Below, one piece after another: positions 1-32,518 of a DNA stretch of 64,000 nt. Where the stretch lies: assembly GCF_040362765.1 (NCBI RefSeq), contig NZ_BAABWK010000001.1, forward strand, positions 310,001 through 374,000, given 5' to 3'. Position numbers and translations under genes: made by a program. The stretch is from Pyruvatibacter sp. HU-CL02332. Lineage in GTDB: Bacteria > Pseudomonadota > Alphaproteobacteria > CGMCC-115125. Within the stretch, counting starts at the first letter, position 1; every line of letters begins with the position of its first letter. The notes under the pieces were generated by a model that saw only the letters and a list, made by a program, of their open reading frames with translations, was not told where the DNA came from and searched no databases.

Positions 1-1881
1 AAGCGACGTCACATCGCTGCCCGGCGTCAACTGTTCATAAGCGGACATCTGCATGGGATCGCGCGTCAGCACGCGGGTCATGATGTCTTTCGCCACCGGC
101 GCCGCCGCACGACTACCACCGCCGCCGTGATCGACAATGACGGAAATTGAATAGCGTGGATTTTCAACGGGTCCATACCCCACGAACAACGCGTGGTCGC
201 GGAACTTCCATGGCAGTTCGTTGTTCTTGAGCACACCCCTGGCCCGTTCTTCACGGGAAATGCGGCGCACGAGAGCTGTCCCGGTCTTGCCGGCCATGCT
301 GGCATTTTCGAGTGGCAGCCGGGAACGGAAGGCTGTGCCGCCGGGAATGTTGACCACCGCGTCCATGCCGTCCTGAATGACTTTCATATGAGCCGGATCA
401 ATACCCATCGGCACCACCTGAGGCATTTGACGTAGCTGTCCGCCGACGGATCGCACAAGCCACGGCCGAATGCCATTGCCGCCATTGGCGATACGCGCTG
501 CCATGGTTGCCAGCTGCAGCGGCGTCGTCAGCACATAGCCCTGCCCGATCGATGCATTGAGCGTTTCGCCCTGTTGCCAGGAAATACCCGTCGTGGCCCG
601 TTTCCACCCCCGCGACGGCACGAGGCCCGATTTCTCGCCTGCCATATCAATCGCCAGCTGGTCACCCAGACCAAAGCGGCGAGACATTTCCTCGATCTTG
701 TCGATGCCGACGCGCTTGCCGATGTCATAGAAATACACATTGCAGGATTGCTTGATGGCCTCGACCATATTCACCGGACCATGCCCCCCGCGCTTCCAGC
801 AGTGGAAATCATGATTACCCAGTGTCACCTTGCCCGTGCACGATATCATGCGACGCGGGCTGATGACCCCAGCCTCAAGTGCGGCAAGAGCAACAATCAT
901 CTTGTAGGTAGACCCCGGCGGGTATTGCCCGGCCAGCGTCTTGTTCACCAAAGGGTTGAGCTCATTGTTCGTCAGCCCGTCCCACTCGGCCTGACTAAGG
1001 CCAACGTTGAACAAGTTGGGGTCAAAGCCCGGCGCTGACACAATCGACACCAGTTCACCGGTCAACACATCCATCACAACGACGGATGCACTCTCCCCGC
1101 GTACGCGCTCGGTCGCATATCGCTGAATGTCCATGTCGAGGGTCAGAACAACTTCATCCCCCGGCGTACCGGGATCCTTGGCCAGTTCGCGGATGACACG
1201 GCCAAACGCATTCACCTCAACGCGGCTGTTGCCGGCGCGACCGCGCAATTCATTTTCCAGCAGCCGCTCAACGCCGGACCGTCCGACGCGGAAGCCCGGC
1301 AGCTGCAAAAGCGGGTCGTTGGCGCCCTCAAGATCCTTGTCCGTTACAGCGGCCACATAGCCCACCACATGGGCCAGGTCTTCCCCATACGGATAGTGCC
1401 GCGTATCGCCCACTTCCGGCTGAAGACCGGGTAGATCAGGCGTGTGGATGTTGATCTCTGCAAAGGATTCCCACTCAAGGTTTTCAGCAACCGTGAGAGG
1501 AACAAAGCCACGCTTCTGCCGCACTTCGCGCAACAGGCGCTTACGGGTCCGGTCAGAAATGGGAATAATCTCGGACAGCTTGTCGAGAGTGGTCTCGACG
1601 TCATCGGTCTGCTCGGGGATCAGCACAACGCGGAAGTTTTGACGGTTGGATGCCAGCTTCTCTCCGAAGCGGTCCAGAATCTCACCCCGCAGGGGAGGCA
1701 ACAGCCGAACATTGACGCGGTTTTCTTCAGCCAGGATTTCATATTCCTGGCTCTCTATCACCTGCAGGTAGTACATCCGTCCGGCAAGCACCGTGAAGAG
1801 CGCGAGCTGTCCGCCACCAAGAATGGCGGCTCGGCGGGAGAACATCTTCTGCTTGTCTGCATCGCGATCATCTAGAGCCAT
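1..1881 (-). CDS. mrdA: Penicillin-binding protein 2, peptidoglycan transpeptidase (3' end outside the window)
   Basis: Class B penicillin-binding protein that cross-links peptidoglycan during cell elongation, anchored in the inner membrane with its catalytic domain in the periplasm. Translating from the ATG at 1881 gives 627 codons with no stop before the window edge. A single N-terminal membrane segment lies at about residues 17-35. The transpeptidase motifs are all present: STYK with the nucleophile Ser324 (910-912), SCN at 379-381 followed by VYFYD, and KTGT beginning at Lys532 (286-288). The gene starts 10 nt after the mreD stop and is the last visible member of mreBCD-mrdA; rodA would be expected next, beyond the edge. 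The C-terminal end cannot be seen. Confidence 0.95.
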   Translation of the reverse strand, partial: MALDDRDADKQKMFSRRAAILGGGQLALFTVLAGRMYYLQVIESQEYEILAEENRVNVRLLPPLRGEILDRFGEKLASNRQNFRVVLIPEQTDDVETTLDKLSEIIPISDRTRKRLLREVRQKRGFVPLTVAENLEWESFAEINIHTPDLPGLQPEVGDTRHYPYGEDLAHVVGYVAAVTDKDLEGANDPLLQLPGFRVGRSGVERLLENELRGRAGNSRVEVNAFGRVIRELAKDPGTPGDEVVLTLDMDIQRYATERVRGESASVVVMDVLTGELVSIVSAPGFDPNLFNVGLSQAEWDGLTNNELNPLVNKTLAGQYPPGSTYKMIVALAALEAGVISPRRMISCTGKVTLGNHDFHCWKRGGHGPVNMVEAIKQSCNVYFYDIGKRVGIDKIEEMSRRFGLGDQLAIDMAGEKSGLVPSRGWKRATTGISWQQGETLNASIGQGYVLTTPLQLATMAARIANGGNGIRPWLVRSVGGQLRQMPQVVPMGIDPAHMKVIQDGMDAVVNIPGGTAFRSRLPLENASMAGKTGTALVRRISREERARGVLKNNELPWKFRDHALFVGYGPVENPRYSISVIVDHGGGGSRAAAPVAKDIMTRVLTRDPMQMSAYEQLTPGSDVTSL

Positions 1882-19906: not shown

Positions 19907-21376
19907 TTAGCTGCCTTCAACCCGAAGAGCGACGAAGCTTGTCTCGCCACCGCGGCTGATCTGCAGAAGCACTGATTTCAACCCTTCAGACTTGGCACGA
20001 GCAACCTGCTCTTCGACCTTATCCGGATTGGTCACGTTTTCCTGAGCCACCTTGACGATGACATCGCCGGGACGCACCCGCTTCTCAGCGGCCTGACTGC
20101 CAGGAACAACAGCAACAACAAGCACGCCATCCACATCTTCGGCCACTTCATACTGCGCACGCAGCACGTCGTTCAGCGATGACAGCGACAGGCCGAGCGT
20201 TTCGTTCTCGGAAGGCTTACGCGGTTCAGCTTTTGCTTCGACGGTGCCGTCGGCTTCTTCAAGACGCCCAAGAGTGACCTGATAGGTTTCCTCTTTGCCG
20301 TCCCGCAGAACCAGCACGTCTACTGCTTTGCCAACTTCGGTATCCGCAACAATGCGCGGAAGATCACGCATCTTGTCCACAGGCTTGCCGTCAAACTTGA
20401 CGATCACATCACCCGCTTCAAGACCACTGCCGACTGCTGGGCCACCTTCCTGGATACCGGCAACAAGCGCACCCTTGGTATCTTCAAGGCCAAGGCCTTC
20501 AGCCAGATCATCGGTGACTGTCTGGATACGCACGCCAAGCCAGCCACGGCGTGTTTCACCAAATTCCTTGAGCTGATCGATGACACTTGTCGCCGTCGTT
20601 GCAGGAATGGAGAAGCCGATGCCGATGGAACCACCAGTTGGTGAAATGATGGCTGTGTTCACACCCATGACTTCGCCGGCCATGTTGAACAGCGGGCCAC
20701 CAGAGTTACCGCGGTTGATGGATGCGTCCGTCTGAAGGAACGCGTCATACGGACCCGCATTGATGTCACGGTCGCGCGCCGAAAGGATACCGGCGGTTAC
20801 CGTGCCGCCAAGGCCAAACGGATTCCCGATCGCCATGACCCAGTCACCAACCCGAAGTGCTTCGCTATCGCCAAAGCGAACGAAAGGAAGCTTGCGATCT
20901 GCGTTCACTTTGAGCAGAGCAAGATCCGTTTTGGGATCACGTCCCAGAACTTCAGCGTCAAGTGTTTCACCGTCAGAGAAAGTGACAGTCACTTCGTCAG
21001 CGTCTTCCACCACGTGGTTGTTGGTAACAACAAGACCGTCTGGGTCAATCACAAAACCGGAGCCAAGTGACTGCACCTTGCGTGACTGCTGTTCGCCACC
21101 ATGACGCTCAAGAAACTCTTCGAAATATTCCTCAAACGGGGAACCCGGAGGAAATTCTGGAAGCGGGACTCCGCTGCCACCGGACACGGTCTGGGCCGTT
21201 GAAATATTGACCACCGCAGGCGTCAGCTTTTCAGCGAGGTCTGCAAAGCTCTCAGGCGCGGACCGTGCATCTGCCGGAGTCCAGGCAAGAGAGGCTGCGC
21301 CAATCGCCACAACGCCAAGTGCGAGCGTTGCTGCGCGCGCAATGCGGGTGGCGGAAAATGATGTTTGGAATGTCAC
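19907..21376 (-). CDS. degP: Periplasmic serine endoprotease, Do/DegP family
   Basis: HtrA-type protease and chaperone of the periplasm, 489 aa, GTG start at 21376. A signal peptide covers about residues 1-38 (hydrophobic AATLALGVVAIGAASLAW, then ADARSA). The catalytic triad is His121 (VTNNHVVEDADEV), Asp151 (RDPKTDLALLKV) and Ser225 (NRGNSGGPLF). Two PDZ domains follow at about 290-375 and 395-485, with WLGVRIQ and PGDVIVKVAQ. It is the last gene of the hflK-hflC-DUF2065-degP group, an arrangement frequent in alphaproteobacteria, where MucD/DegP clears damaged envelope proteins. Confidence 0.94.
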   Translation of the reverse strand: MTFQTSFSATRIARAATLALGVVAIGAASLAWTPADARSAPESFADLAEKLTPAVVNISTAQTVSGGSGVPLPEFPPGSPFEEYFEEFLERHGGEQQSRKVQSLGSGFVIDPDGLVVTNNHVVEDADEVTVTFSDGETLDAEVLGRDPKTDLALLKVNADRKLPFVRFGDSEALRVGDWVMAIGNPFGLGGTVTAGILSARDRDINAGPYDAFLQTDASINRGNSGGPLFNMAGEVMGVNTAIISPTGGSIGIGFSIPATTATSVIDQLKEFGETRRGWLGVRIQTVTDDLAEGLGLEDTKGALVAGIQEGGPAVGSGLEAGDVIVKFDGKPVDKMRDLPRIVADTEVGKAVDVLVLRDGKEETYQVTLGRLEEADGTVEAKAEPRKPSENETLGLSLSSLNDVLRAQYEVAEDVDGVLVVAVVPGSQAAEKRVRPGDVIVKVAQENVTNPDKVEEQVARAKSEGLKSVLLQISRGGETSFVALRVEGS

Positions 21377-24353: not shown

Positions 24354-25490
24354 ATGACCAGCCGTTCTGGACCGAACAGGGATCAAATCCTCGCCGCCCT
24401 GGCCACCGTCAGTGCCCCCAACGGCAAAACCCTGCCCGATGCGGGCCTTGTTCAGGGGCTGGTGATCCGTGATGGCAATGTGGGATTTGCCCTCGAAATT
24501 GACCCGGCACAGGCTGCAGCAATGGAGGATGTCCGCGCCGCGGCCGCAGAAGCCGTAAAGGCTGTCCCCGGCGTGCTTTCAGTAACCGCCGTCCTCACGG
24601 CCCACAACGAAGCACCGTCAGCGCCTGCGCCGAAGCAGGAGGCGGCACCTCAGGCCCCGGCCCATGCCCAGGGCGGAAAAACCGGACCGCTCGACATTCC
24701 CGGTGTCGGCGCCATCGTGGCAGTTGCCAGCGGCAAAGGCGGCGTGGGCAAATCGACACTTGCTGTCAATCTCGCTTTGGGACTTCACGCGCTAGGCCTG
24801 AAGGTCGGCCTGCTGGACGCCGACGTCTACGGCCCCTCCATCCCCCGCATGCTGGGCCTGAATCGCAAACCGGATGCAAGCGACAACAAAAAACTCATTC
24901 CTTTAGAAGCCTATGGCATCAAGGCCATGTCCATCGGCCTCATTGTCGAAGAAGACACACCCATGATCTGGCGCGGCCCCATGGTCCAGTCCGCCATTTC
25001 GCAGATGCTCGTGGATGTGGAGTGGGCACCCATTGATGTTCTGATCGTCGACATGCCGCCGGGCACCGGCGATGCACAGCTGACCCTTGCCCAGCGTGTT
25101 CCGATGACAGGCGCGGTGATTGTCTCCACGCCCCAGGAAATTGCCCTCATCGATGCACGCAAGGCCGTCGCGATGTTTGAAAAAACGCGGGTACCCATTC
25201 TGGGTGTCGTGGAAAACATGGCTTGGCTCGAAATGCCGGACGGGTCCCGCAATCACATCTTTGGTGAGGGCGGCGCGCGCAAGACCGCTGAAAAGCTGAA
25301 TGTGCCGTTCCTTGGCGAAGTGCCATTGATCACGGCTATTCGTGAAGGCGGTGACGAAGGCAGGCCAGTATCTGGTGTAGAGCCGGATGGTGCATCAGCA
25401 TCCGTGTTCAAACAGATTGCCGCCGGGCTGATGGCGTCCCTTGAAAACACGGGACAAAAACCCGCTCCACGCATCGTCGTCACTGACTGA
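24354..25490 (+). CDS. mrp: Mrp/ApbC-family ATPase (iron-sulfur carrier family), CxxC absent
   Basis: P-loop ATPase of the Mrp/NBP35 family, 378 aa, which normally carries and transfers iron-sulfur clusters. The N-terminal MIP18/DUF59-like domain (about 8-85) precedes an Ala/Pro-rich linker and the ATPase domain with the deviant Walker A SGKGGVGKST, LLDADVYGPSIPRMLG and IVDMPPGTGDAQLTL. At the place where many homologues have CPxC after the ENM motif, this protein reads ENMAWLEMPDGSRNHIFG, with no Cys. It might bind clusters through other residues or not at all. A perfect 12-bp hairpin follows its stop. Confidence 0.92.
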   Translation: MTSRSGPNRDQILAALATVSAPNGKTLPDAGLVQGLVIRDGNVGFALEIDPAQAAAMEDVRAAAAEAVKAVPGVLSVTAVLTAHNEAPSAPAPKQEAAPQAPAHAQGGKTGPLDIPGVGAIVAVASGKGGVGKSTLAVNLALGLHALGLKVGLLDADVYGPSIPRMLGLNRKPDASDNKKLIPLEAYGIKAMSIGLIVEEDTPMIWRGPMVQSAISQMLVDVEWAPIDVLIVDMPPGTGDAQLTLAQRVPMTGAVIVSTPQEIALIDARKAVAMFEKTRVPILGVVENMAWLEMPDGSRNHIFGEGGARKTAEKLNVPFLGEVPLITAIREGGDEGRPVSGVEPDGASASVFKQIAAGLMASLENTGQKPAPRIVVTD

Positions 25491-25496
25491 ACGCAA

Positions 25497-25524
25497 AACG
25501 GGGCTCTCGCATGAGAGCCCCGTT
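25497..25524. terminator. Bidirectional terminator between mrp and the FPGDRNP-repeat gene
   Basis: Perfect 12-bp stem AACGGGGCTCTC / GAGAGCCCCGTT with the 4-nt loop GCAT between two convergent genes. On the minus strand it is followed by TTTTGCG, so it should end the small secreted-protein gene efficiently; it also lies 7 nt after the mrp stop. Confidence 0.8.
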
Positions 25525-25570
25525 GGCGGCGTCATGGGCTCACGACCCACGATGTGTTCTCAAGCAGGTG

Positions 25571-25861
25571 TTACACGCGACCATGTGGGTTGCGGTCACC
25601 AGGAAATTCGTCTGCCTGCACAGCAACATTGCTCTGTGCAGAAGAACCTGTAGCAGATGCTGTACCATGCTGATGACCGGGATTACGGTCACCTGGGAAA
25701 TCATCATTGCTCATGTGAGCAGTCTTTTCGGCAGATACGGCCTGCTCAACGGCAACCGGCGCATGTGGGTTGCGGTCACCTGGGAAATCACCAGATGCTC
25801 CTGCAGCAAGAGCGGGAGCGGAAATTGCGACAAGCGCAGCTGAGATCAAAAGCGTTTTCAT
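25571..25861 (-). CDS. Small secreted protein with three FPGDRNP repeats (unknown function)
   Basis: 96 aa with a perfect GGAGGA ribosome site 7 nt before the ATG. A signal peptide with a typical c-region (MKTLLISAALVAISAPALA, cleavage after ALA) leaves a mature chain of about 77 residues. This carries three copies of (D/E)FPGDRNP at residues 25-32, 54-61 and 85-92, about 30 residues apart, two of them followed by His. The last copy ends four residues before the C terminus. The repeat units are also similar at DNA level, suggesting internal duplication. There is no Cys or membrane segment. I recognise no family. It is a single-gene unit, ended by a strong terminator shared with mrp. Confidence 0.85.
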   Translation of the reverse strand: MKTLLISAALVAISAPALAAGASGDFPGDRNPHAPVAVEQAVSAEKTAHMSNDDFPGDRNPGHQHGTASATGSSAQSNVAVQADEFPGDRNPHGRV

Positions 25862-26042
25862 TGGATGTCCTCCGGACGTTTGTTGTTGATTGCCTCATGC
25901 ACATCCTTGTGCCGCTTCAATGTGCGTATTCAGCCAATCACACGCACATCAAGCCGACACGCATATGTGTGAGACATTCGTGAGGACACAAATCCGCAGT
26001 CTTCACCACAGTCTTCCGCCCGTCCCATCGCACAAACACAAA

Positions 26043-26068
26043 GGGCCGGAGCATTTCTGCTCCGGCCC
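26043..26068 (-). terminator. Terminator of the 115-aa secreted-protein gene
   Basis: Perfect 11-bp stem GGGCCGGAGCA / TGCTCCGGCCC with a 4-nt loop, followed on the minus strand by TTTGTGTTTG. It lies 22 nt past the stop of the upstream gene and separates it from the FPGDRNP-repeat gene. Confidence 0.8.
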
Positions 26069-26090
26069 CGTGATCGCATGTGATGGATTG

Positions 26091-26438
26091 TTAGCGTCCG
26101 GCTACAAGCGTGGCACTTTCAGCAGAGCCATCTGGCGCTGTGAGGTCCCATTTGTCGCCAACGGCACGTTCAACTGCAGCAACACAATACGGTCCGGTTT
26201 CCGCCGTTGCCGCGGAAGAGAAGCATGCCTCTTCACCTGACAGCTCCCATGTACCGTCAAGGGTTGCATCACCCATGACCTGCGAATAGCTGCCGTCAGC
26301 ATTGATCAAAACAGAACGTTCCGCGCCATCAGCGCCTGTGACGTTCACGGTGTTCTCATAGAACGAAGCCATCGGGTCAGCCAGCGCCACACCTGTCATA
26401 AAACCAAGGGCTGCAAGCGTTGCAAAAATAAGTCTCAT
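26091..26438 (-). CDS. Small secreted protein of unknown function
   Basis: 115 aa from the ATG at 26438, with GGAGGAA 9 nt upstream. The signal peptide MRLIFATLAALGFMTGVALA is followed by a mature domain with short beta-like strands: NTVNVTGADGAERSVLINADGSYSQVMGD, GTWELSGEEACFSS, GPYCVAAVERAVGDKWDLTAPDG. Two Cys residues (in EACFSS and PYCVAA) could form a disulfide in the periplasm. The pattern recalls small extracytoplasmic beta-sandwich proteins of alphaproteobacteria, but I recognise no named family. Monocistronic, with its own terminator. Confidence 0.75.
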   Translation of the reverse strand: MRLIFATLAALGFMTGVALADPMASFYENTVNVTGADGAERSVLINADGSYSQVMGDATLDGTWELSGEEACFSSAATAETGPYCVAAVERAVGDKWDLTAPDGSAESATLVAGR

Positions 26439-26578
26439 CGTCGGTTCCTCCCAGAACGCGTTTTGTTTTTGGCACCCCACACAGAGGTTTGGTTAACGCG
26501 GGGGAGACAGTGCCACAAAAAACAATCCGTGCAAGAACTGTCTTGCGCGCCAAATCCTTCGTGTGACTGGAACTGAGT

Positions 26579-27496
26579 CTATTTGTTGCGGAAATTCAGC
26601 GGCAAACCGGCAGTTGGCCATTGCATTTTTACGAGCTTTCCTGTGCCTGAAAGGGTGATGTATGCGGTTTTGAGATCCGCACCGCCAAAGCAGATGTTCG
26701 TCACCAGGAGGTCCGGCAAAGGCGTATGAGTGACCGTCTGCCCATCCGGTGAGACAGACGTGATGCCACCATTGAAGATCGTCGCAACGCAGATATTGCC
26801 GTCAGCATCCACAGCCAGACTGTCAAAATACTGAAGGCCCGGTGCTGTCATCAGCAGGTTCGCTGAAATGGGTCCATCGGGAGATTTAGCGACACCCGGG
26901 CTTTCAATATCAAGATACCAGACACGACCAGACACCGTGTCTGCGAAGTAGACAGTCTTTTCGTCCGGCGACAGACCAACACCATTGGGCGTATTCAGTG
27001 GGAAGGCCTGTTGCGTGATCGAAGATCCATCAGGCTTGGCATAGAACAGTGCACCCCGATCCGTGACGCGGCCGTAGCTCTTGCCAAGGTCGGTGAACCA
27101 GAAGCCACCCTCCTTGTCGAAGACGATATCATTGGGTCCATTAAGCGGCACCCCATCACACTCCGTATACAGAACATCCACCTTGCCGGTTTCAAGGTCC
27201 ACCCGCTCGATGCGCCCACCGGAATAATCATCCGGCTTGTCGCCGGGGATCAGCAGGCCGTCCTGCTCGTGCCAGGCAAAGCCGCCATTGTTGCAGACAT
27301 AGACTGCACCATCAGGACCGATGGCTGCGCCATTTGGACCGCCGCCAAGTTCCGCAATCACAGAGACCTCACCGTCAGCAGACACCCGGGTCAATGTTCC
27401 GCGCTCAATTTCAACCAGGATGATCGAGCCATCATCCATGGCAATTGGCCCTTCAGGAAAGCGAAGACCGGATGCAATCTCGGTAAAGTCAGTCAT
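26579..27496 (-). CDS. SMP-30/gluconolactonase-family hydrolase
   Basis: Six-bladed beta-propeller of 305 aa, probably a metal-dependent lactonase. From the ATG at 27496 (GGGAGA 8 nt upstream) the sequence opens TDFTEIASGLRFPEGPIAMDDGS, with the family's metal-binding Glu in FPEGP. Other conserved points are GGGPNGAAIGPDGAVYVCNNGG, LNGPNDIVFDKEGGFWFTD and LNTPNGVGLSPDEKTVYFAD, which contain the usual Asn and Asp ligands. No signal peptide. It follows folA by 41 nt and may be co-transcribed with thyA-folA, though a metabolic link is not evident. Substrate unknown. Confidence 0.9.
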   Translation of the reverse strand: MTDFTEIASGLRFPEGPIAMDDGSIILVEIERGTLTRVSADGEVSVIAELGGGPNGAAIGPDGAVYVCNNGGFAWHEQDGLLIPGDKPDDYSGGRIERVDLETGKVDVLYTECDGVPLNGPNDIVFDKEGGFWFTDLGKSYGRVTDRGALFYAKPDGSSITQQAFPLNTPNGVGLSPDEKTVYFADTVSGRVWYLDIESPGVAKSPDGPISANLLMTAPGLQYFDSLAVDADGNICVATIFNGGITSVSPDGQTVTHTPLPDLLVTNICFGGADLKTAYITLSGTGKLVKMQWPTAGLPLNFRNK

Positions 27497-28945: not shown

Positions 28946-31171
28946 CTAGGGACAAGTCGTTCCGTTGGTGAAGCCAATAGATCCTGTCTGGACACCCAGA
29001 TTCGAGCAGAACGCGACCGTTGGCGTGGTGTTATCCACATTGCCGGAGCCACTGACCACATTGCCCGTGCCGTCATAGGCCACAGTATTTGTGGGAGTTC
29101 CGTTGAGTGTGGACAGGTCGATGGTCACATTGTTGTTGTTCGTGAACTCAAGCGCCCGGTTGCCGGTCACCGTGACCGAAGATCCGGTTACCACCAGGGT
29201 ATTGTTGTCGGAAATATCAATGCCTTCCTGACCGCCCGTAGATGACAGGGCAACATTCGTCAGTGTGATCGTGTTTCGATCATCTGCATCAAATGCTTCA
29301 AGCGAGCTTGAATACTGCCCACCCGTAACCGTAACAACGTTGTCGTCGTCAATGTTGAAGGACTGCCCCGCCAGATTGCTGGTCATCGAATTGGTGACAG
29401 TGACCGTATTGAAATCAGCAACATCCACAAAATCTTGGCCGCTATTGGTCGCCGTCACGCCCGAGACAGCAATGACATTGTTGTTGTTGCCGAAGATGGC
29501 GTCGGCGCTCACATTCCTGAACGTTGAATCCGTCAGAGAAATCGTGTTTCGATTGTTGAATGCAATGCCATCCACCCCGATTGTCGAGAAAGCGGTTCCC
29601 GAAATCGCAATGCCATTTCGGCTGTTGATATTAATGCCATCGATCGTCGCGTTCGAGATAGTGGCGTCAGTAACATTGATGGTATTTCGATTGTTGAAGA
29701 ACAACCCAAACAAACCACTGTCGAAAGTCCCGCCCTCAACCGACACGGTGTTGTCGTTGCCAAAGGCCACGCTGGGCGCATTAGGTGTGTTCGAAACATT
29801 TACGTTTATCAGCCGCGCAGTGTTGCGGTTGATCCCGAGCACACCTTCCAGACCAACATTGGCGATATCAACATTCTGCAGCACCACGAACTGGTCAGAC
29901 CCGATCCGCACGCCTGTATTTGCAAAATTGATGGTGTTGCCGGTCACCCGCACACCTGCGAGGTGATTGCGGTCCGCCAGTGTGACGGTGGGTGTGTTGA
30001 CGGCGTTGGTGAAGGTCGGCGTCTGACCCGGCGCAGTCAGCGTTGCCACTGTTCCCGATCGTAGCCCGCGCACTTGAATGCTGCCGCCGCCGCCCAAAAG
30101 GGTCTGGCTCGCCTGCAAGGCCTGCGGACCGGCAATAGCGCCGCCACTGCCATCTGCAACCAGCAGAGTATTACTGCCAGCAGCAGCAGCCGGCGCGGTT
30201 ACACCGGTAGCGCTGTTCACATCAACAGCTCGGTCAAAATCAACACCCGTCAGCAGATCTTCAACATTCTCGCGTTCGCTTCGGGCAGTGAGAATGTCAG
30301 TGTCCCGCTCCAGACCGTCCATCATCCGGTGCCACTGGTTTGATTTGTCCGAGGAACGAGCAGCACTTCCGCCGAAGATGGAAAATGGCAGTCGAAACCG
30401 AAGTCCTACTTCCACATTGCCTCCGCGCACGCTGTCGGACCGCCATTCGGTTTCAAGCGCCAGTAAGGAGCCGGGAATGCTCTCCAGAATGTCATGGATC
30501 CGCCATTCAACACGCGACTTGGGACCGGCAACTTTTTCAAAAGCGTCTTTGTCGTCGAAGAAGAAGCCACCCGCATAGGCCCGTAGCGCGTGTCGTTGTG
30601 CATCAATTCCCAGACCTTCAAGCGGGATGCGAAAACCGACCTCACCATCGACACCCGATAGCGGCACTTCCTGACCACCAAGCAGAAACACTTGGCCGCC
30701 TTCAATGACGGCAGACGCAAGTCCCGGAGACCCTTTTGGATCGCTGATGGCCAGATACCCGTTCAGCCGCACATCAAAGTTGTCTGAAAGTGCCTCCACG
30801 CCACCTGAAGCTGCCCAGAAAATATTGTCCTGTGACGTATCCCGCCGATCAGCACCGGCCCAGGCACCAAGGTTCCAACCACCCGGCAGCATATGGCGAT
30901 ACCCGACCGCCGCATTGATTTCAGAGACCTGTTCTTCGAACAGCTTGCCGCGCGCATCCAGAAAGAAAAGGCCTTTTTCGCCCTGCACAATCGGCAGAAA
31001 AAGTGCAGCTTCAGCACGGTCTTCATGTGTACCGCCCAGCGCCCCACCAAGTTCCGCCCAGCCGACCCACCGATCCGCATCCGCTGATTGAGCGGGTACA
31101 GCTCCAACAGCCTGCGCCAGGACAAATATGGCCGCGAATGCGTATGCACCGCATTTTTGGATTCGCTTCAC
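28946..31171 (-). CDS. Inverse-autotransporter-like surface protein with beta-helix passenger
   Basis: 741 aa from the GTG at 31171 (GGGGA upstream); the frame continues upstream, but only this start gives a normal signal peptide (KRIQKCGAYAFAAIFVLAQAVGAVPAQSA). Residues about 38-270 look like an intimin/invasin-type beta-barrel: AELGGALGG, AALFLPIVQGEKGLFFLDAR, AAVGYRHMLPGGWNLGAWAGAD, RLNGYLA, LRAYAGGFFF and VEVGLRFRLPF. An Ala/Gly linker follows. From about 395 to 690 runs a series of 22-25 residue coils with (N/D)xN(T/V)(I/V)xV(T/S) motifs, typical of a right-handed parallel beta-helix. The C terminus has two Cys, 15 residues apart. Probably a surface adhesin; passenger at the C terminus. 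Confidence 0.75.
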   Translation of the reverse strand: MKRIQKCGAYAFAAIFVLAQAVGAVPAQSADADRWVGWAELGGALGGTHEDRAEAALFLPIVQGEKGLFFLDARGKLFEEQVSEINAAVGYRHMLPGGWNLGAWAGADRRDTSQDNIFWAASGGVEALSDNFDVRLNGYLAISDPKGSPGLASAVIEGGQVFLLGGQEVPLSGVDGEVGFRIPLEGLGIDAQRHALRAYAGGFFFDDKDAFEKVAGPKSRVEWRIHDILESIPGSLLALETEWRSDSVRGGNVEVGLRFRLPFSIFGGSAARSSDKSNQWHRMMDGLERDTDILTARSERENVEDLLTGVDFDRAVDVNSATGVTAPAAAAGSNTLLVADGSGGAIAGPQALQASQTLLGGGGSIQVRGLRSGTVATLTAPGQTPTFTNAVNTPTVTLADRNHLAGVRVTGNTINFANTGVRIGSDQFVVLQNVDIANVGLEGVLGINRNTARLINVNVSNTPNAPSVAFGNDNTVSVEGGTFDSGLFGLFFNNRNTINVTDATISNATIDGININSRNGIAISGTAFSTIGVDGIAFNNRNTISLTDSTFRNVSADAIFGNNNNVIAVSGVTATNSGQDFVDVADFNTVTVTNSMTSNLAGQSFNIDDDNVVTVTGGQYSSSLEAFDADDRNTITLTNVALSSTGGQEGIDISDNNTLVVTGSSVTVTGNRALEFTNNNNVTIDLSTLNGTPTNTVAYDGTGNVVSGSGNVDNTTPTVAFCSNLGVQTGSIGFTNGTTCP

Positions 31172-31218
31172 GTGGATGTCCCCAGTACGTCCCACCCCAA
31201 TGGGACGGAGGTCTTTTG

Positions 31219-31233
31219 CTAACGTCTTGTTAA
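31219..31233 (-). promoter_or_regulatory. CtrA-like box upstream of the surface-protein gene
   Basis: CTAA-N7-TTAA lies 48 nt upstream of the GTG start and differs by one base from the TTAA-N7-TTAA consensus of the cell-cycle regulator CtrA of alphaproteobacteria. Cell-cycle control of a surface structure would be plausible, but one site found by eye is weak evidence. Confidence 0.3.
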
Positions 31234-31342
31234 CACCCCTAATCTCGCACGCCAGTGTCAGGTAGCCAAGGACACCCACTGATAATGGTGTATAGACGCG
31301 ATAATGCCCTTAGAAAGGGCCATTTGGGGTCGGGAACATACA

Positions 31343-32518
31343 ATGCTGAAACGGTCAGCCATCATTTTGGGCGCTCTGGCGGCCATCTATTACGGTGCCG
31401 CCTGGTACATTGTCCCAGGCGCATTGGAGCGCCCGAACAACCGCGTTATCGAACATACCGGCTACGAGGTCAGCGATACCGCCAGAGAGCTGCATGCGTC
31501 TTTGACCATCGGCGATCTCCATTCAGACACACTCTTGTGGAGCAGAAGTGTCCTTGACCGTGCGGATCGCGGTCATGTGGATGTACCCCGCTTGGCCGAG
31601 GGCAATGTTGCCCTTCAGGTATTTGCCGCCGTCACCAAAGTTCCCGATGGCCTCAACTATGACGAAAACACCGCCGACAGTGATCAGATCACGTTGGCAG
31701 CCATGGCGCAGGCTTGGCCAATTGCCACGTGGAGCAGTTTGCTGGAGCGGGCGCTTTACCAGGCAGACAAACTCCAGTCTGCCGCCCGTCGCGCACCAGA
31801 TGCATTAAAAGTCATTCAATCCCGTGCGGATATTGATGCGTTGCTGGTCGAGCGCGCAGCGGGCAACCCGATCGTCGGCGGCCTTCTGGCCACCGAAGGC
31901 GGCCACCCGCTTGAAGGCAACGTTGAGAACATCGATGTGCTGTATCAGGCCGGCTACCGGATGATCGGCCTGCACCACTTCTTCGACAATGATCTGGGTG
32001 GATCACTCCACGGCCTCACCGGTGAAGGGCTGAACGAACATGGTCGTGCTGTGGTGAAGGCCGCCGAAGAACGTCAGATGATCATTGATGTGGCCCACTC
32101 CTCACCCAATGCCGTAGCCGATGTACTGGACATGGCAACGCGCCCTGTCGTGGTGTCTCACACGGGTGTCCGCGGCGCGTGTGACAGTGTCCGCAACCTT
32201 TCGGACGATTTGATGAGGCGCATCGCATCGCAGGGCGGCCTTATTGGTATCGGGTACTGGGACGGGGCTGTATGCGACATCTCTCCAGCCGGAGTGGCCG
32301 CCAGCATCGTTTACGCAGTGGCCCTGGTGGGCGACGACCATGTGGCCCTTGGTTCTGACTATGATGGCGCAACCCAGGTTGCCTTTGACACATCTGAGCT
32401 TGTGGTGCTCACCGAAGCTCTGCTCAAAGCAGGCTTGGCCAAGGAAACCATTGCCAAGATCATGGGTGGCAATCTCGTGCAGTTTTTGCGCGCAAACCTG
32501 CCCTCCGGCGATGCCTAG
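31343..32518 (+). CDS. Membrane dipeptidase (peptidase M19)
   Basis: Zinc-dependent dipeptidase of the renal-dipeptidase family, 391 aa from the ATG at 31343. An N-terminal hydrophobic segment (SAIILGALAAIYYGAAWYIV) works as signal anchor, so the enzyme probably faces the periplasm. Metal-binding motifs are in order: GDLHSDTL (HxD), LLATEGGHPLEGN (bridging Glu), IDVAHSSPNAV (His), VVVSHTGVRGACDSVRNLSD (His/Arg) and GSDYDGATQ (Asp). Monocistronic and just upstream of ssrA. In bacteria such enzymes cleave dipeptides, some with D-amino acids, so peptidoglycan fragments are a possible substrate. Confidence 0.92.
   Translation: MLKRSAIILGALAAIYYGAAWYIVPGALERPNNRVIEHTGYEVSDTARELHASLTIGDLHSDTLLWSRSVLDRADRGHVDVPRLAEGNVALQVFAAVTKVPDGLNYDENTADSDQITLAAMAQAWPIATWSSLLERALYQADKLQSAARRAPDALKVIQSRADIDALLVERAAGNPIVGGLLATEGGHPLEGNVENIDVLYQAGYRMIGLHHFFDNDLGGSLHGLTGEGLNEHGRAVVKAAEERQMIIDVAHSSPNAVADVLDMATRPVVVSHTGVRGACDSVRNLSDDLMRRIASQGGLIGIGYWDGAVCDISPAGVAASIVYAVALVGDDHVALGSDYDGATQVAFDTSELVVLTEALLKAGLAKETIAKIMGGNLVQFLRANLPSGDA

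Follow-up and report, generated by a model that had tools for sequence, protein, structure and literature searches.

Gene A and its octapeptide repeats

Gene A lies at 25571..25861 on the minus strand of the window, the whole stretch of 64,000 nucleotides from Pyruvatibacter sp. HU-CL02332 that was analysed here, and encodes an exported-type protein of 96 residues with three [D/E]FPGDRNP octapeptides. A preliminary description, made from the letters alone, had placed a secreted mini-protein at these coordinates, which are correct. Residues 1-19 (MKTLLISAALVAISAPALA; 25805..25861, minus strand) have the MK, hydrophobic stretch and ALA of a putative Sec-type signal sequence when the translation is judged by eye, in agreement with the signal peptide first proposed. 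The octapeptide occurs as DFPGDRNP at residues 25-32 (25766..25789, minus strand) and 54-61 (25679..25702, minus strand), and as EFPGDRNP at residues 85-92 (25586..25609, minus strand). The near-identical octapeptides had been described as about 30 residues apart, and the start-to-start distances are indeed 29 and 31 residues. The similarity claimed at the DNA level was also recovered, as three direct copies of 28 nt spaced 93 and 87 nt apart, with 89% and 68% identity to the reference copy. In the mature chain a word of seven residues is observed three times, while the longest word found three times in 20,000 shuffles had four residues, and this in only 4 shuffles.

The last 76 residues of A form a polar chain without Cys, Trp, Tyr, Leu or Ile and with a pI of 5.3, and the mature protein, if left uncut, would have a mass of about 7.8 kDa. 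The window protein has five histidines; H stands directly after copies 1 and 3, and GH after copy 2. An AlphaFold2 model built from four sequences, one of them partial, has a mean pLDDT of 52.5 and no secondary structure, and this low confidence may reflect how scarce the data are rather than disorder.

Similarity searches

The view that A belongs to no recognised family stands, in that none of five libraries gave a match above its cut-off. The best Pfam entry was PF23379 (DUF7096), with 12 bits and E 0.19 against a gathering cut-off of 27 bits. NCBIfam returned three weak matches (E 0.006-0.05), none over its cut-off. The lowest E value among these belonged to the HARLDQ MBL-fold model NF000405 (16.2 bits, E 0.0061; curated cut-off 350 bits). 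The "His-rich protein BRANT" model NF047414 (17.0 bits, E 0.0089; curated cut-off 44 bits) resembles A in being small and exported-type, and its weak match covers residues 6-44, of which about one third is signal sequence. A search of 59 genomes with this model gave nothing above the cut-off; at E 0.001 it did not pick up gene A in any of the four genomes of the genus, and its sole match in the genus, in the relative called G001 below, falls elsewhere than gene A.

PHROGs and PADLOC gave no matches with A, and the PDB sequences gave nothing over cut-off, with one beta-lactamase at E 1.3. A tblastn search of plasmids with A also found nothing. Genome contigs searched with A alone yielded 389 stretches, of which none was confirmed, the source genome and its very near relatives being possibly absent from that collection; 31 stretches from viral contigs were likewise all unconfirmed. 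Rfam, searched over 25400-26700 with E up to 1, returned four matches, every one under gathering. The words FPGDRNP and PGDRNP occurred in no paper of the library searched, and a literature search on protein A found nothing.

Conservation and distribution

Among the genomes sampled the order is represented by four genomes of one genus, namely that of the window (G000) and the relatives G001, G002 and G003. A is present in all four and adjoins gene B in each, and mrp adjoins A in the three whose contig continues, the G002 contig ending inside A. That contig is the exact reverse complement of JANQMQ010000126.1, from a "Candidatus Phaeomarinobacter" metagenome bin; according to passages of PMC4110880, the member Ec32 of this group has a 3.4-Mbp genome and was found with brown-algal cultures. 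The gene order thyA-folA-SGL-B-A-mrp-hflK-hflC-degP is identical in G000, G003 and G001. Adjoining thyA in the window is a 777-residue protein (28946-31279, minus strand) that matches an inverse-autotransporter beta-domain and a right-handed beta-helix.

The A protein of G003 is 94% identical to that of the window over 96 residues, and that of G002 is 64% identical until the contig ends after 50 residues. The G001 protein has 75 residues, with 31% identity over 93 columns by tblastn and 46% by a MAFFT count, while the genes flanking A are 70-91% identical between the window and G001. Of the columns of the signal sequence, 14/19 are identical to G001 (first 20 alignment columns), as compared with 19/53 in the remainder. 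G001 has the octapeptides DVPGRNSP at residue 23 and DVPGDRNP at residue 54, 31 residues apart; when the mature G001 protein was shuffled 300,000 times, D.PGDRNP never arose. G002 has DYPGDRNP at residue 25, followed by N. The copy number is thus three in G000 and G003, at least one in the partial G002 and two in G001, and all copies fit D/E-x-P-G-[DR]-[RN]-[NSQ]-P. An octapeptide stands directly behind the signal in all four proteins and again about 30 residues further on wherever the sequence is complete. The linkers, the copy number and the histidines vary among the four genomes (one partial) and the octapeptide is retained; conserved motifs between diverging linkers, the mark sought in a multivalent motif protein, are therefore seen in A across these four genomes.

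Between G000 and G003, A has a dN of 0.028 and a dS of 0.323 (ratio about 0.09). For six other genes of the neighbourhood the same comparison gives dN 0.009-0.036, dS 0.41-0.88 and dN/dS 0.01-0.06, which makes the ratio of A the highest of the seven. Judged by these substitution rates, A is under purifying selection. The two sequences differ by 17 synonymous and 6 amino-acid changes, and none of the 6 falls in the 24 repeat codons, a bias that is not significant (Fisher p 0.17).

A recent local duplication without function had been considered at the outset, to be suspected if no homologue conserved the repeat. A homologue search that allowed other copy numbers found relatives in which the motif recurs at comparable distances but in differing copy number, and A is therefore not such a duplication.

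A search with the single protein in 96 genomes, with E up to 1, matched 42 of them; 92 of the 96 lie outside the genus, and 38 of these had a match, the best at E 0.0013. A DNA pattern of the octapeptide matched 14 of 385 genomes of the class, 10 of them outside the genus. It found 11 extra places (ten outside the genus and one in G001), and its reversed control found four in the genomes listed; on reading, none of the 11 falls in a gene for a small exported protein, and related genomes share some of them. A profile of A matched 9 of the same 385 genomes, five of them outside the genus at 19.6-25.1 bits. At none of the 31 loci that the single-protein and profile searches gave outside the genus does an octapeptide-like word stand at the match; one of them, L139, has EQPGRN off the match and on the opposite strand. 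No credible copy of A was thus found in 381 genomes of the class outside the genus, a sample of a larger group that includes the 92 above. From these sequence comparisons A is conserved, but apparently only in its genus, and so it is either young or too fast-changing to be recognised elsewhere.

Gene B, its paralogue and the motif outside A

Gene B (26091..26438, minus strand) encodes an exported-type protein of 115 residues that is predicted to be a small beta-barrel, and no model of Pfam or NCBIfam matches it above its cut-off. Its AlphaFold2 model has a mean pLDDT of 78.1 and eight strands. The predicted barrel resembles U-Omp19 (Z 8.2, rmsd 3.6, 93 residues aligned), the marine protease MP inhibitor (Z 6.5, rmsd 3.4, 82 aligned) and MliC (Z 6.5, rmsd 3.7, 77 aligned); such calycin-like barrels (U-Omp19, LupI-type and MliC inhibitors) include inhibitors of proteases and of lysozyme, the identity to them is 8-14%, and such Z scores can mean a common arrangement only. 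The highest structural match of B is to designed barrels, at Z 8.8.

A further gene, C, lies beyond B on contig 258 of G002 (L040, about 915-1316, minus strand). It encodes 134 residues and is paralogous to B, matching the B of the window at E 1e-3. C carries DDTPGRNQP behind its signal, near the mature N-terminus, and its C-terminal end is SDLPGRNR; two D.PGRN words occurred in none of 300,000 shuffles of C, and a single one in 20 of these shuffles. C was not found in G000, G001 or G003, where the query matched only B and one weak place.

Three inventories of motif variants were made in the four genomes. D.PG[R/S]N was found at 17 places (control 13), PGD[R/S]N at 15 places, eight of them in A (control 11), and E.PG[R/S]N at 14 places (control 4). 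Of the frames read in the three inventories, the only plausible exported carriers were A, C and one cytochrome c of G001; a frame with a motif match at L131 is presumably biotin-carboxylase-like. The cytochrome c (L078) is of membrane type and has a long Ala/Glu/Pro tail ending DDMPGRNN. The tails of its orthologues in G000, G002 and G003 (L079-L081) end DEPERNGRP... instead, and because the tail is not kept in these three the match was treated as chance.

Expression elements around gene A

The ribosome site described earlier is present as GGAGG at 25869-25873 (minus strand). The strong terminator said to follow the gene is borne out in part: a terminator-type hairpin behind A (25499..25522, minus strand) folds strongly, at -27.5 kcal/mol, and is followed by TTTT (sequence behind it on the minus strand, TTTTGCGT), but it is not listed by a consensus terminator scan. 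Its main stem has 12 pairs and uses two of the T. The consensus scan does list a terminator-like hairpin between B and A, at 26042-26069 behind gene B; the region has three terminator-like sites as against 1.2 in shuffles. Because this second hairpin separates A from B, and given the conserved block upstream of A, it is plausible, on the sequence layout, that A is transcribed alone.

Upstream of A, an alignment of the four genomes contains a block TCAC-N7-TCACA-N4-TGCG...GCTTGATGTGCG (25943..25983, minus strand) that is kept in all four, including the most divergent, G001. Its core (25943-25972) has one mismatch-free match in each of the four genomes, the pattern having been built from these sites. 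The block is probably a promoter or regulator region of A; a promoter scan listed no sigma-70-like promoter at A. The TCAC words, 11 bp apart, resemble a site for an OmpR-type regulator. Passages of PMC9731502 give the ChvI motifs as TTGC-N3-GCAA in Caulobacter and N-GCC-N8-GCC in S. meliloti, and the block was rejected as a ChvI site for want of resemblance to the motifs in those passages. The BvrR passages of PMC10538546 print no site letters for comparison. A search for the block with up to three mismatches found just three further places, namely a site in coding sequence of G000, the corresponding site of G003 and an intergenic site of G002, and so no regulon can be claimed. The intergenic site (L098, G002 contig 500, about 1501 on the reverse strand) has three mismatches and precedes a large exported-type open reading frame whose mature start is QDVSGDRSEP.

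The leader of A also contains an inverted repeat, ATGTGCGT...ACGCACAT (25920-25949, minus strand), with arms too short for a repeat search. When the alignment is read by eye, it is kept in G000, G002 and G003 (one change) and absent in G001.

Discussion

The best explanation that we can offer for A, put forward tentatively and at somewhat less than an even chance, is a lineage-specific, Sec-exported and disordered string of short linear motifs that dock to a folded partner in the envelope, with the B-type barrel as the first candidate. A would be expressed from its own regulated promoter and exported to the periplasm or the medium, where the chain, predicted to be intrinsically disordered and without a fold, would present each octapeptide as a docking peptide, several copies giving avidity. 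Proteins with multivalent short linear motifs are the general class with which A may be compared, and A resembles them in being probably disordered and in repeating a short peptide, almost unchanged, at fairly even intervals. A motif that is kept while the linkers are free, a variable copy number, and the motif on a paralogue of the neighbour are what would be expected of a docking short linear motif. The barrel encoded next door may be named as first candidate partner because its paralogue C has the motif close to the start of the mature chain and again at the C-terminal end, a hint of gene fusion. The hint comes from one of the four genomes, and gene conversion or a shared tag would also fit it.

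Such a tag would sit at the termini of proteins that this genus exports and would serve their export, retention or proteolysis, with no docking role specific to A and B. This unlikely alternative draws on the position of the motif close to both termini of the mature chain, in A of G000 and G003 and in C of G002, and on the DDMPGRNN end of the G001 cytochrome c. Against this, the inventories of all four genomes turned up no plausible exported carrier beyond A, C and that cytochrome, and the different ends of the three cytochrome orthologues fit a chance match.

Binding of metal or another ligand by the repeats, through acidic D..GD.N turns that might hold Ca2+ with the help of flanking histidines, is doubtful too. 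Every repeat has Asp, Asn and Gly, and the histidines remarked on after the repeats are real in the window (H or GH after the copies), but the relatives do not keep them: the orthologue in G001 lacks His altogether and N follows the motif in G002, which leaves metal binding by His, one of the roles first suggested, without support. The second D is also absent from DVPGRNSP and DTPGRNQP. Calcium loops of the EF-hand type have the form DxDxDG, and D-x-P-G-(D)-R-N-P is not such a loop.

We consider it improbable that A is a fast-evolving orphan of little function whose repeats are a local duplication. Its restriction to one genus, its hardly conserved linkers and the highest dN/dS of the seven local genes would suit an orphan of this sort, but the ratio is still only about 0.09, and G001, the most divergent relative, still has the motif, the signal and the upstream block.

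There is also little to recommend the view that A is a precursor, exported and then cleaved into octapeptide-bearing pieces that serve as signals or antimicrobials. A signal sequence followed by peptides that recur almost unchanged every 30 residues or so did suggest it initially, but on reading the copies are not flanked by dibasic or other conserved cleavage sites, the motif is also found at the ends of C in G002, and the 13 window open reading frames scanned with Pfam include no RiPP-type enzyme or peptide transporter. The peptidases seen among these 13 frames are a DegP-type protease (19907-21376) and an M19 membrane dipeptidase (31304-32518).

The docking-motif reading can be carried further, to a proposal to which we give only a small chance of being right. 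The octapeptide D-x-P-G-(D)-R-N-P might have originated in this marine genus as a portable docking motif of the envelope, present in several free copies on the disordered A and joined to both ends of a B-type barrel in one relative, with A cross-linking or coating such barrels, perhaps inhibitor-like, in the periplasm or on the surface that meets algal hosts.

Small exported proteins restricted to one genus are common and mostly uncharacterised, and A, as an orphan family, is unusual without amounting to a new kind or class of system. What it offers is a conserved unit of eight residues at a spacing of about 30 residues, an upstream region that is conserved as well, and a possible partner encoded by the adjacent gene. 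Should the motif prove to be a docking peptide, A would exemplify multivalent linear motifs in the bacterial envelope.
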